Positions 14,552 to 18,208 of a DNA stretch of 57,770 bases are shown here, piece after piece. Under the pieces are notes generated by a model. It did not search any database and was not told the DNA's origin. It saw nothing but the letters and a program-made list of their open reading frames with translations. This DNA is from Methyloversatilis sp. (GTDB lineage Bacteria > Pseudomonadota > Gammaproteobacteria > Burkholderiales > Rhodocyclaceae). The stretch lies in the NCBI RefSeq assembly GCF_030696805.1, contig NZ_JAUYRO010000086.1, positions 1-57,770 of the forward strand. The letters are read 5' to 3'. How positions within the stretch are numbered: the first letter of the stretch is position 1; the number at the start of each line of letters is the position of its first letter. A program made the position numbers and the translations under genes.

Positions 14552-15319
14552 TCAGGGCTTGTTCGCTGCGACGACGAGCAACTCGTCATCGAGCCAGCGC
14601 GCCAGCCAGCCGCCGATCAGGGTCCGGGCATCTTCGGCGGTGACCGATGCGCACGCAGCGGCGAACGGGGTGCCGGATGCCATCGCCTCCAGCATGGCGG
14701 CTTCGTCGTCGCCGACCGACCGGAAGTGTGGCTGGAAGCCCTTGCGCCACACGAGCAGGCGGCCCGGCTGCGCCAGCACTTCGACCGGCGGCGGGGCTTC
14801 GCTGCGGTCCATCGCATGCCACAGGTCCAGCGTGTTGCGCGTGACAAACAACCATTGCGCCGTCGGGTGCAGGCGGAACACGACCTGCGCCCAGTCGTCG
14901 CCGTCGAAACTGCCGAGAATTTCGCCGGTGACCGGTTCGGCGTCGGCACCGTCGAAGGCCTGACGCAGGGCCCAGTCGAGCCGGGCCAGTTCCGACACCT
15001 CCGGGTCGTCCGGCCACGCCGCGCCCAGCCAGTCGGCGAAGCTGTCGCCGAAGGGCCGCAGGCTGAACTGGCTTGGCGGGTGGTCGGCGATCCAGGCAAG
15101 CGCGGTCGCTTCGAAACGCTCGTCGCCCAGCCACGCCCAGGTCTTGTCGAAGCTGTCCTTGAGCGTGTCGAGCAGGCGGACGCGGTAGGCATTGAAATAG
15201 ATCTGTGCGCGATCGGCCTTCGCCAGACCGCCGGCGTCGGCCAGGGTGTTCAGGAAGTCGTTCGGCCTGTCGTGCAGGTAATCGATGAATTGCGTCTGCT
15301 GGCTGGCGAGCGCGCTCAT
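14552..15319 (-). CDS. bufC: BufC-type partner protein (DUF2063, MbnC-like)
   Basis: This 255-residue protein has the DUF2063 N-terminal helical segment ([26 protein letters not shown]). DUF2063 proteins act with DUF692 iron enzymes to modify cysteines in a precursor peptide, as MbnC does with MbnB in methanobactin synthesis. The gene starts inside the end of bufB (ATGA overlap, 15316-15319), so the two are translationally coupled and probably made in equal amounts. It is the last gene of the operon and convergent with gdhA. Expected role: recognition of the precursor leader and support of the BufB active site. Confidence 0.85.
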
Positions 15320-16173
15320 GCGACGGCCTTTTCGAACGGTGCGCCGCGTTCGGCACGGATCGCGATGCGGCGGGCACGGTCGAGTTCGTGCAGTAGTTCG
15401 GGCAGTTCCGGAATGTGGTCGTCGCGTTCGATCATCGTCGCCACGTTGCCGAACATGCCGCAGGCAATTTCATACAGCGCCCACACTTCTTCGCACACCG
15501 GATGGTCGTGCGTGTCGACCAGGTGGTCGTCATGCGTCGAATGACCGGCCAGATGGATCTGCTGGATGCGGTTGGCTGGCATCGCTTGCAGGAAGTCGAG
15601 CGCGTCGAAGCCGTGATTGACGCTGCTGACATGGATATTGTTCACGTCGAGCAGCAGCAGGCAATCCGCCTCGTCGGCCACCCTGCGGATGAAATCCCAC
15701 TCGGTCGAGTCCGACATGCCGTAGCACAGATAGCTCGACACATTTTCGAGCACCAGCCGGCGCCCCAGTTCGTGCTGGACCTGACCGATCTTGCGCACCA
15801 GCAGGCGGGCGGATTCTTCGGTGTACGGCAGCGGCAGCAGGTCATGCGAATTGCGGCCGTTGAAGCCGGTCCAGCATAGGTGATCGGAAATCCACAGCGG
15901 ATCGATGCGGTCCGCCAGCCCCTTCAGTCGGGCGAGGTAGTGGCGATCAACCGGTTCGTCGGAGCCGATCGACAGCGCGACGCCGTGCATGGCCATCGGG
16001 TAGTCGGCGCGCAGCCGGTCCAGCATGGCCATCGGCTTGCCGCCGTCGACCATGAAGTTTTCGGAAACGATTTCCAGCCAGTCGAGCGGCGCCCGCTGTT
16101 CGAGCAACGCGGCGTAGTGGGCAGGGCGCAATCCCAGTCCGAATCCGGGTGATTCACGGGTCAAATTGTTCAT
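15316..16173 (-). CDS. bufB: BufB-type multinuclear iron oxygenase (DUF692, MbnB-like)
   Basis: This 285-residue TIM-barrel enzyme is of the DUF692 family, which holds two or three iron ions and oxidises cysteine to thiooxazole- or oxazolone/thioamide-type groups. Candidate metal ligands are in the expected order: His63 ([10 protein letters not shown]), His98 (ISDHLCW), Glu143 (VLENVSS), Asp176 and Asn178 (LDVNNIH), His207/His211 (IHLAGH), His222 and Glu249 (MIERDD). The ATG at 16173 has AGGA upstream; an ATG 12 codons earlier lacks a ribosome site. It lies 121 bp after the bufA stop and overlaps bufC by 4 bp. Confidence 0.9.
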
Positions 16174-16256
16174 GGGAGCGGTCCTGACAACCGGCGACAT
16201 GGCATGCAAGGAAGAGCCGTTCGCGACCGGGCCCCATGCCCTTGCAGGCGCGGAAT

Positions 16257-16270
16257 CCGTTCGCGAACGG
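16257..16270. repeat. Palindrome in the bufA-bufB spacer
   Basis: CCGTTCGCGAACGG is a perfect 14-bp palindrome, and its left half recurs at 16217-16226. In the operon mRNA a hairpin here could protect the bufA message and give more precursor than enzyme. Confidence 0.45.
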
Positions 16271-16294
16271 CGCGAAGCGACAACGGGAGCGTTC

Positions 16295-16588
16295 TTACTT
16301 GGCGACCAGATCGCCGATGGTGCCGCCCTGCGTCAGGCAATCCTTGGCCGGAATGCCCTTGAAACCGTGGCCCTTGCAGGCGTTCTGACCCTTGCAGCTG
16401 TGCTCTGCAGTGGCGCAGTCGCTGTTGCCCTTGCAGGCGTGCAGGCCGTAGCAATGCACCTTGTCGCTGGCACCGATGGCCATGCCCTTCGAACCTGCCG
16501 GGGCATCCGCGGCAAATACCGAACCGGACAGGGCGAGCGCAGCGGCGGCAGCGGCAATCGAAGCACCGAAATTCATTGTGGACATCAT
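16295..16588 (-). CDS. bufA: BufA2-type bufferin precursor, copper-binding RiPP
   Basis: This 97-residue precursor has a signal peptide (about 1-24, [10 protein letters not shown]) and a mature part with six cysteines in a regular pattern: [34 protein letters not shown]. This pattern matches the BufA2 group of periplasmic bufferin-type metallophores, whose cysteines are converted by BufBC into copper-binding heterocycles. Export is via the Sec pathway by its signal, so modification probably happens before export. AGGAG precedes the first of two adjacent ATGs. The 85 bp after the stop contains a perfect 14-bp palindrome (16257-16270) and, in the same frame, one more Ala-Cys-Lys-Gly, perhaps a relic of a longer peptide. 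Confidence 0.86.
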
Positions 16589-16676: not shown

Positions 16677-16705
16677 CTAGACCCGGACGCCATCGCCATG
16701 CTTAC
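16677..16705 (-). promoter_or_regulatory. Possible ECF-sigma promoter for bufABC
   Basis: The minus strand has GTAAGC, 17 nt, then GTCTAG, about 89 nt before the bufA ATG. An A-tract (GAAAAAAATC) lies just upstream. The GTAA and GTCTA elements resemble promoters of ECF sigma factors, which control several bufferin-type operons. No sigma gene is in the window, so this is by eye only. Confidence 0.35.
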
Positions 16706-16737: not shown

Positions 16738-17988
16738 TCAGGGCTTTTTCAGTACTTCGTCATCGGACGGTGTCGCCCAGGGCAGCTGCTGCTTCTGCGC
16801 CTCGTCATGCCAGCGCTCCTCTTCTTCGTGGATGTAGCGCTGCGTCGTGCGTGCGTCGGTATGACGGGCGTCCTTCTGCACGAAGCGTTCGTTCATGCCG
16901 CTGTCGAGCTTGGCCGTAATGCCGGTGTGGCGTCCCCAGTGGGCCGAGGCGGCGCGCAGCTTTTCGCGCTTGTGTTCCGATGCCTCGGGCAACAGGTCGG
17001 CGGCGGCGTTGAACAGTTTTTTCAGGATCTGGTTGAGCCGGCGCGCGGTGATCGGGCTGCGGTCCTTGATCGACACCAGCAGCGGCGTGAGGTCGGTGCG
17101 TTTCGGCATGGCGCTCAAGCCCAGATGTTTCCGGTAGCGCACCAGCGCATGCACCATGTCATCGGCCACCGGCACCCTGGCCTGCTTGCCGCCCTTGCCC
17201 ACGACATGCCACCACCAGCGGCCGCGCTCTTCGCGAAAGCTGTTCATGCGATGCGATTCCAGTTCGCCGGCACGCGGCGCCAGCATGTAGAGCAGGGCGG
17301 CGACGAAGCGCGCGCGTTCGTACTCGTCGCGTTCGCCGTCTGTTTCGCGCGGCAGGGCTTCAATGGCACGGGTGACGGCGTGCCACATTTCGGCGTCGAG
17401 AAAACGCTCGATCTTCTGCATTTCCTCGGTCTGCGCGATGACCTGGGCCGGCCCGGTCGCCGCCATGTTCAGCTTGCGCCGGCGCTGCCGGATCAGACCG
17501 AGCGGGTTGCCCGAGAGGTAGCCGGCGTCCACCAGGTAGGCCATCAGCGAGTTGATCGCCGCAATCGACGTGAGCACTGCCGAATCCGACAGCGGGCCGA
17601 CGAAGGGCCGCCATGCGGGCTTCACGCGCGGCACTTTGGGTGCGCACCACAGCTTGGCCGGCTGCGGATCGGCCAGAAAGTGCAGATAGCCTTCGAAGTC
17701 CTGCCGGTTCAGGCTGGACAAGGGCTTGCCGCATTCGATCAGCGACCACAGCAGCAGCCGCTCGCACTCGCGCTGGTAGATGCGGTGCGTGCCGGGCGAC
17801 TGTTCGTACTCGGTCAGAAAGCAGCGGATGGCGTCGACGTCGTTCGAGGCACTGATCTGCAGCCGCGCAGCGTCGGCGCGGTTCACGCCGGCGTGACCGT
17901 CGAGCGCGGCCGGCACCGTGATTTCGTCCAGCGGACGGATCGGAACCGGGCTTTCCGGCGTTACGGGCAGGGCGCTTTCGGTATTCAT
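16738..17988 (-). CDS. Lone tyrosine recombinase / integrase
   Basis: This 416-residue protein has an N-terminal SAM-like DNA-binding part (about 60-165) and a C-terminal tyrosine-recombinase domain. The catalytic set is visible: Arg in LAPRAGELESH, Lys in GKGGKQARVP, the box HWGRHTG (His-x-x-Arg), His in DARHTDARTTQ and the nucleophile Tyr in RYIHEEEE. Thus it looks active. The ATG at 17988 starts the family-like part. No excisionase, phage or conjugation genes, tRNA or clear att repeats are nearby, so it seems a stand-alone chromosomal recombinase of unknown target. It sits upstream of bufA in the same direction, 149 bp away. Confidence 0.85.
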   Translation of the reverse strand: MNTESALPVTPESPVPIRPLDEITVPAALDGHAGVNRADAARLQISASNDVDAIRCFLTEYEQSPGTHRIYQRECERLLLWSLIECGKPLSSLNRQDFEGYLHFLADPQPAKLWCAPKVPRVKPAWRPFVGPLSDSAVLTSIAAINSLMAYLVDAGYLSGNPLGLIRQRRRKLNMAATGPAQVIAQTEEMQKIERFLDAEMWHAVTRAIEALPRETDGERDEYERARFVAALLYMLAPRAGELESHRMNSFREERGRWWWHVVGKGGKQARVPVADDMVHALVRYRKHLGLSAMPKRTDLTPLLVSIKDRSPITARRLNQILKKLFNAAADLLPEASEHKREKLRAASAHWGRHTGITAKLDSGMNERFVQKDARHTDARTTQRYIHEEEERWHDEAQKQQLPWATPSDDEVLKKP

Positions 17989-18208
17989 GGCAGCGTTCGG
18001 CGGGCAGTGTTGCAGGGGCAGGGCAGGTGGATGGTAACCGGCTTGTGGAACCATCCGGCGATTGCCCGGGTCAGGTTCGCGTCAGCAAACAACGCGATCA
18101 TCGGGACCGATAAAAACGCAAGCCTGTCGTGCTCCGACCGTCGAGACATGCGGCGCAAACAGGTTATCCTTCGGCCGGTCCGATGCACAGCCCGACCCCG
18201 CTTTACCC

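Follow-up and report, generated by a model that had tools for sequence, protein, structure and literature searches.

Three adjoining genes in a 57,770-nt stretch of Methyloversatilis sp. DNA (hereafter the window) raise two questions, namely whether they make up a complete bufferin operon and how an operon with no regulatory gene beside it might be controlled. With respect to the first question, the original prediction placed a complete bufABC unit at positions 14552-16588, and all three genes are found there, on the minus strand and in the order bufA, bufB, bufC. Family membership, gene order, retention of the catalytic residues and conservation across the genus support this identification. 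We assign a probability of roughly 0.85 to the reading of the locus as a Buf2 bufferin operon, in both identity and working, with the chemistry, export and copper role of its product ascribed by kinship to the family. The second question is addressed through a spacer hairpin, a conserved promoter-like element and a candidate sigma factor encoded elsewhere in the genome.

Components of the Operon

The first gene, bufA (16295..16588, minus strand; ATG start, TAA stop), encodes a 97-aa precursor of the BufA2 type. The model search that had been set beforehand as a possible refutation places it inside the BufA2 family (NCBIfam NF050166, 101.8 bits, cut-off 60). Its six cysteines (positions 46, 52, 58, 65, 71, and 84) agree with the predicted count, and a KG after those at 52, 65, and 71 gives the three CKG motifs that had been noticed as repeats. 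The N-terminus carries a hydrophobic segment up to VFA-AD that, judged by eye from the sequence, looks like a Sec-type signal. Six is the cysteine count in 19 of the 20 operons compared; the remaining precursor, from genome G058, has seven, the extra one sitting in a lipobox-like signal. The G058 genome contains nine BufA2 matches and four DUF2282 matches. A sequence search of BufA against solved structures returned no relevant match.

The second gene, bufB (15316..16173, minus strand), encodes a 285-aa enzyme of the MNIO family, formerly DUF692, as predicted (PF05114, 351 bits, cut-off 25; NCBIfam NF050167, 368.9 bits, cut-off 310), and its relatives among PDB structures are 3BWW, 8HCI, and the MbnB entries. 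The alignment with 3BWW covers the motifs SDHL, LDVNN, VNHG, and IHxAGH, and a second, weak segment covers VDTH and ERD. The ligand-type His, Asp, and Glu positions of BufB are invariant in all 20 Buf2 enzymes aligned. The same 20 enzymes keep E-R-D-D (E249-R250-D251-D252 in BufB; assigned by motif, not structure), a site at which the Buf1 enzyme of the same genome reads E-W-D-T. In MNIOs of the Cys-Lys type, the residue after the proposed catalytic Asp is reported to be Asp in place of Phe (PMC13097082); the D251-D252 pair of BufB corresponds to this Cys-Lys-type residue, in agreement with the CKG motifs of the precursor. Membership in the oxazolin (Hvf) group was considered and rejected, with scores of 255.6 against a cut-off of 360 for HvfB and of 21.8 against 142 for HvfC, and a precursor motif that is CKG rather than EGKCG.

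The third gene, bufC (14552..15319, minus strand), encodes a 255-aa protein that scores 65.4 bits against DUF2063 (PF09836, cut-off 27.2), and it overlaps bufB, both as predicted. The sequence of BufC retrieved no relevant match among solved structures. An AlphaFold2 model (pLDDT 94.0), built from a 40-sequence alignment of the window protein and 39 of 57 usable references, all drawn from loci L100-L162, has as its best Foldseek match 3DEE, the gonococcal protein NGO1945 (E 2.5e-06, TM 0.64/0.79), and as its next closest TglHI. On the strength of this fold and of the domain match, BufC is predicted to be a type 1 (PME-1) partner combining DUF2063 with an RRE-type domain. The shared segment of bufB and bufC is 4 nt long (ATGA, 15316..15319, minus strand), a length found in 19 of the 20 operons compared, with 13 nt in the other (start codons chosen by rule); such an overlap suggests translational coupling of the two genes.

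Conservation, Neighborhood, and a Second Operon

The three genes occur together in all 13 Methyloversatilis genomes examined, the present one included, and each of the 13 encodes one BufB of the Buf2 type and one of the Buf1 type. The nearest named relatives are likewise from Methyloversatilis, in a comparison from which the window's own record may have been absent. Upstream of the operon lies a tyrosine-recombinase gene (16738-18054); because all 12 relatives have it beside the operon, we regard it as a constant neighbor rather than a mark of recent mobility. The downstream gene gdhA is present in only four of the 12 relative stretches fetched.

The original prediction described the unit as minimal, having neither a DoxX-like nor a sigma gene next to it. 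This is correct locally, but both kinds of gene are present elsewhere in the genome, and the operon is probably not regulated alone. A second bufferin operon is encoded on another contig (C47, about 2.2-4.6 kb of locus L034, minus strand) and consists of genes for a DUF2282 precursor, an MNIO, a DUF2063 protein and DoxX. This Buf1-DoxX operon has the same promoter motif as the window operon (see below), as does an unlinked sigma gene, and a 10-bp stem in the spacer between its first two genes.

A Recurrent Hairpin in the bufA-bufB Spacer

The 121-nt spacer between bufA and bufB contains a hairpin (16216..16271, minus strand) with 23 predicted pairs. The palindrome noticed originally is indeed a stem, running from 16271 to 16216, but the spacer as a whole is not more structured than its shuffles: its z-score is -1.08, with 24 of 200 dinucleotide shuffles equally low, and a second run gave -1.27. 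The outer stem hardly varies among five close relatives. Of 24 pairs, two are changed on both sides and 10 are disrupted in one or more of the five sequences; the covariation term is unfavorable, and covariation within the genus is weak.

Across BufA2 operons at large, the corresponding spacers have a median z-score of -2.76, and 79% of the 75 tested fall below -2. This set derives from 116 operons, 26 of which were dropped as near-identical, leaving 90, of which 15 lay outside the accepted range (under 40 or over 210 nt, or containing N); start codons were picked by rule, so that some spacer ends are uncertain. Within the same operons, z-scores below -2 are reached by 16% of 75 regions upstream of bufA, 5% of 150 windows within bufB, and 10% of 40 regions after bufC. 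Other spacers from the same loci and length range reach this level in 21% of cases where the flanking genes are codirectional (39 spacers), in 24% where they are convergent (21) and in 15% where they are divergent (13), and the difference between bufA-bufB and codirectional spacers has a Mann-Whitney p of 2.3e-10, to be read with the rows partly dependent and the control gene calls crude. The A-B spacers of Buf1 operons behave similarly, with 64% of the 25 tested below -2 (52 pairs, less seven that were near-identical or short, less 20 outside the range, 19 of them under 35 nt and one over 210). The recurrence of the hairpin is convincing across operons; that of the window, taken singly, is not. 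Stem sequences of distant operons seem, by eye, to be unrelated.

As for the function of this structure, a hairpin located between the precursor and enzyme genes could be a partial intrinsic terminator, that is, an attenuator setting the precursor-to-enzyme ratio. Its position and the effect to be expected are the same in this case, and TTTTT occurs somewhere in 16 of the 75 spacers. An attenuator nonetheless appears rather unlikely, since a U-tract immediately 3' of the main stem is found in only four of the 75 (a count that misses U-runs paired into the stem) and is absent after the hairpin of the window. Given the scarcity of U-tracts, the hairpin of most operons is likelier to protect the 3' end of the bufA message, or to insulate the translation of bufB, than to terminate transcription. 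We lean, by a small measure, toward the view that the bufA-bufB hairpin protects bufA mRNA or insulates bufB, and would in this way give an excess of precursor over enzyme. We found no prior description of such a hairpin in titles and the openings of abstracts, a search to which subscription papers were mostly inaccessible.

A Conserved Promoter-Like Element

The precursor gene had been predicted to have a promoter-like signal of its own, and a candidate ECF-type promoter, GTAAG-N17-GGTCTA, is located at 16678..16705 (minus strand) and ends, on its 3' side, 90 nt before the bufA ATG. An element of this kind is conserved across the genus: in an alignment of the upstream regions of 13 genus operons and one other member of the family, GTAAG is followed 16-17 nt on by GGGTCTA-like letters, and these conserved letters fall between the end of the recombinase gene and the ribosome-binding site. 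The strict form, GTAAG-N16/17-GGTCTA, occurs at two sites in the 4.19-Mb genome, one upstream of each bufferin operon. Over the 13 genomes it totals 22 sites, 13 at Buf1 and nine at Buf2 operons, which are unlinked, and all lie on the same strand as a bufferin bufB and 361-522 nt upstream of it; the reversed pattern, used as a control, has 82 occurrences across these 13 genomes. The four Buf2 promoters that lack a strict match deviate in the last letters. GTAAG-N16/17-GGTCT is present at the Buf2 promoters of 12 of the 13 genomes, the site in genome G004 missing the final T, and GTAAG-N16/17-[CG]GTC is present at those of all 13.

Among 115 regions upstream of BufA2 genes, the strict motif has 13 matches, all from the genus (four of these being repeats of records already counted), and none outside it. 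In the same 115 regions a SigF-type motif, GTAACC-N16-CGAA, precedes 12 operons, with no occurrence of its reversed control; some Buf2 operons outside the genus may thus be under SigF control.

All 13 genus genomes also have GTAAG-N16/17-GGTCT ahead of an ECF sigma gene, the 5' end of the element lying 60-63 nt before the codon that follows the presumed GTG start, while the DNA farther upstream diverges among many of the 13. In the present genome the sequence upstream of this gene reads GTAAGGTTGCGCACCCGCCACGGGTCTG. A relaxed form of the motif, searched in the own and genus loci fetched (645,140 bases on the two strands together, with overlaps counted), has 16 matches. Twelve fall at Buf2 promoters and one at a Buf1 promoter; the sigma promoter accounts for two more, as two loci contain the same site, and the last, in locus L195, is unassigned.

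The element, recognized here by its conservation, could also, instead of a sigma promoter, be the operator of a transcription factor that responds to copper. We consider this improbable: the spacing alternates between 16 and 17 nt, as in pairs of -35 and -10 elements, the two halves do not form an inverted repeat, the -35 is similar to GTAACC, its counterpart in SigF promoters, and the sigma gene itself is preceded by the element in all 13 genus genomes.

The Candidate Sigma Factor

If the element is a promoter, its reader has to be sought outside the window. Sigma region 4 is matched 28 times in the genome, 23 of these above the cut-off. The best match of any of these sigmas to a bufferin-locus protein is that of an ECF sigma from contig C37 (locus L191), which is 46% identical to the sigma of locus L161. 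In L161 (517-4125), bufA2 is followed on the same strand by genes for this sigma and a DUF3379 protein, and bufB and bufC are divergent; no match to any of the promoter patterns tried was found there. In the present genome the ECF sigma, DUF3379, and catalase-family genes are likewise consecutive (L244:4060-6385, on C37), the product of the gene after the sigma gene scoring 107 bits against DUF3379 (cut-off 33.2). The sigma scores 188.5 against PRK12517, slightly below the cut-off of 197, and its orthologues in the 12 other genus genomes are 84-100% identical over 160-172 residues. It is this sigma gene that is preceded by the conserved element.

The absence of a sigma gene beside the operon, together with the element upstream of the unlinked sigma gene, makes control in trans probable. 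The window operon is probably transcribed from the ECF-type promoter by this PRK12517-like sigma, which would drive its own gene and the Buf1-DoxX operon as well; we infer recognition of GTAAG-N16/17-GGTCT from the shared element, and the simplest reading is that of an autoregulated ECF sigma also serving both bufferin operons. The adjoining DUF3379 protein is likely to be the anti-sigma factor. In the literature searched, which misses most subscription titles, we found no earlier account of this regulator and no paper using the term DUF3379.

Another sigma of the same genome, of the TIGR02943 type (C37:11474-12040; 174.6 bits, cut-off 162.2), has some claim to the role: it is 37-42% identical to sigma proteins of nine bufferin loci fetched from other genomes, and at L238, G014, and L149, all three of which encode a sigma of this type, GTAAG...GACTAA lies upstream of bufA, with the same -35 and a different -10. 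That it is the regulator here is nevertheless improbable: only four of 13 genus genomes have a copy above the cut-off, against a motif present in all 13, a fifth carries one split by a TGA, and the upstream region of the gene in L244 is without the motif by the patterns tried. On account of its presence above the cut-off in only four of 13 genomes, we set it aside as general regulator. The TIGR02943-type gene, in this genome and in another of the genus (G012:C1:1052796-1053363), lies about 2.4 kb from the PRK12517-like sigma set and gives the impression of being lost. Another ECF sigma, at locus L187 and with matches in the genus, was considered and set aside; the relaxed motif has no match at its locus.

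Predicted Working and Significance

The PRK12517-like sigma, then, held in check by its DUF3379 neighbor as anti-sigma, would read the GTAAG-N16/17-GGTCT promoter and drive its own gene and the two bufferin operons, and the hairpin between bufA and bufB would leave the precursor more abundant than the enzyme. The iron enzyme BufB and BufC, with its DUF2063 and RRE fold, are expected to bind the precursor in the cytosol, where core cysteines, most likely those of the CKG motifs, would be converted to thiooxazole-type heterocycles. The modified peptide would leave via Sec and sequester excess copper in the periplasm. That the peptide is instead a methanobactin-like chalkophore for copper uptake is very improbable: MbnB proteins are among the relatives of BufB, but BufB scores 79.5 bits against the MbnB model (TIGR04159, cut-off 325), and the Sec signal peptide (judged by eye), the BufA2 equivalog match and the PME-1 partner fit bufferins.

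The operon itself is ordinary, one more member of a widespread copper-defense RiPP family. What the analysis adds is a testable hypothesis of control in a methylotroph genus, one that names a sigma gene and a likely anti-sigma, puts three promoters in each genome, and includes a spacer hairpin. We give an even chance to the broader proposal that the undescribed ECF sigma/DUF3379 pair is a dedicated copper-stress switch, serving its own gene, both bufferin operons and, by the strict motif, little else, and that bufA-bufB hairpins of unrelated sequence are a general device for precursor excess. If this holds, a lineage that lacks the SigF/NrsF pair has placed its bufferins under a different ECF system, and DUF3379 gains a probable role.

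Comparison with Known Systems

The window operon shares with the Buf2 (Buf_6/12Cys) bufferins, including Caulobacter BufA2B2C2, a six-cysteine precursor (in the window judged by eye to be Sec-exported), an MNIO, a DUF2063 partner, and the order ABC, as these are described in PMC12452194 and PMC13097082. For Buf2 peptides a mass loss at the modified cysteines and a 305 nm absorption band are reported. The captophorins (fontiphorin, oxazolin, and gonophorin) are comparable in the action of an MNIO and a PME-1 partner on cysteines, assigned here by family, but have Lys-Cys repeats where the BufA of the window has Cys-Lys (PMC13097082).

In the cluster descriptions available from PMC12452194, sigma and NrsF genes are reported in Buf1 and not in Buf2 clusters, and the window operon resembles the latter in having no linked sigma gene. 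It differs from other Buf2 operons in belonging to Methyloversatilis and in its probable control in trans by a PRK12517-like sigma with DUF3379. Loci L049, L053, L068, and L149, fetched for their Buf2 genes, contain TIGR02943-like sigmas somewhere within the fetched stretch, in contrast to the sigma-free Buf2 clusters of that report.

In Caulobacter, SigF is reported to drive both bufferin operons from GTAACC-N16-CGAA (PMC3511200) and to be induced by copper (PMC8224329), and Sinorhizobium RpoE7, related to SigF, to drive a DUF692 operon (PMC6180224). The likeness lies in one ECF sigma presiding, here by our reconstruction, over two bufferin operons, and in a -35 that starts with GTAA. The -10 differs, being GGTCT here and CGAA in Caulobacter, and a SigF-NrsF (ECF16) promoter was rejected for the window operon, whose site reads GTAAG-N17-GGTCTA. 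Control by NrsF was rejected as well: PF06532 has no match in the present genome, the Caulobacter control being positive, and the neighbors of the sigma gene are instead those for DUF3379 and a catalase-family protein. Finally, in gigPABT of C. metallidurans, with rpoQ-rsqA, an ECF sigma is assumed to control a bufferin-type operon (PMC10304878); the sigma gene described there is divergent from the operon and adjoins it, whereas the candidate sigma gene of Methyloversatilis is unlinked to the operons that it would serve.
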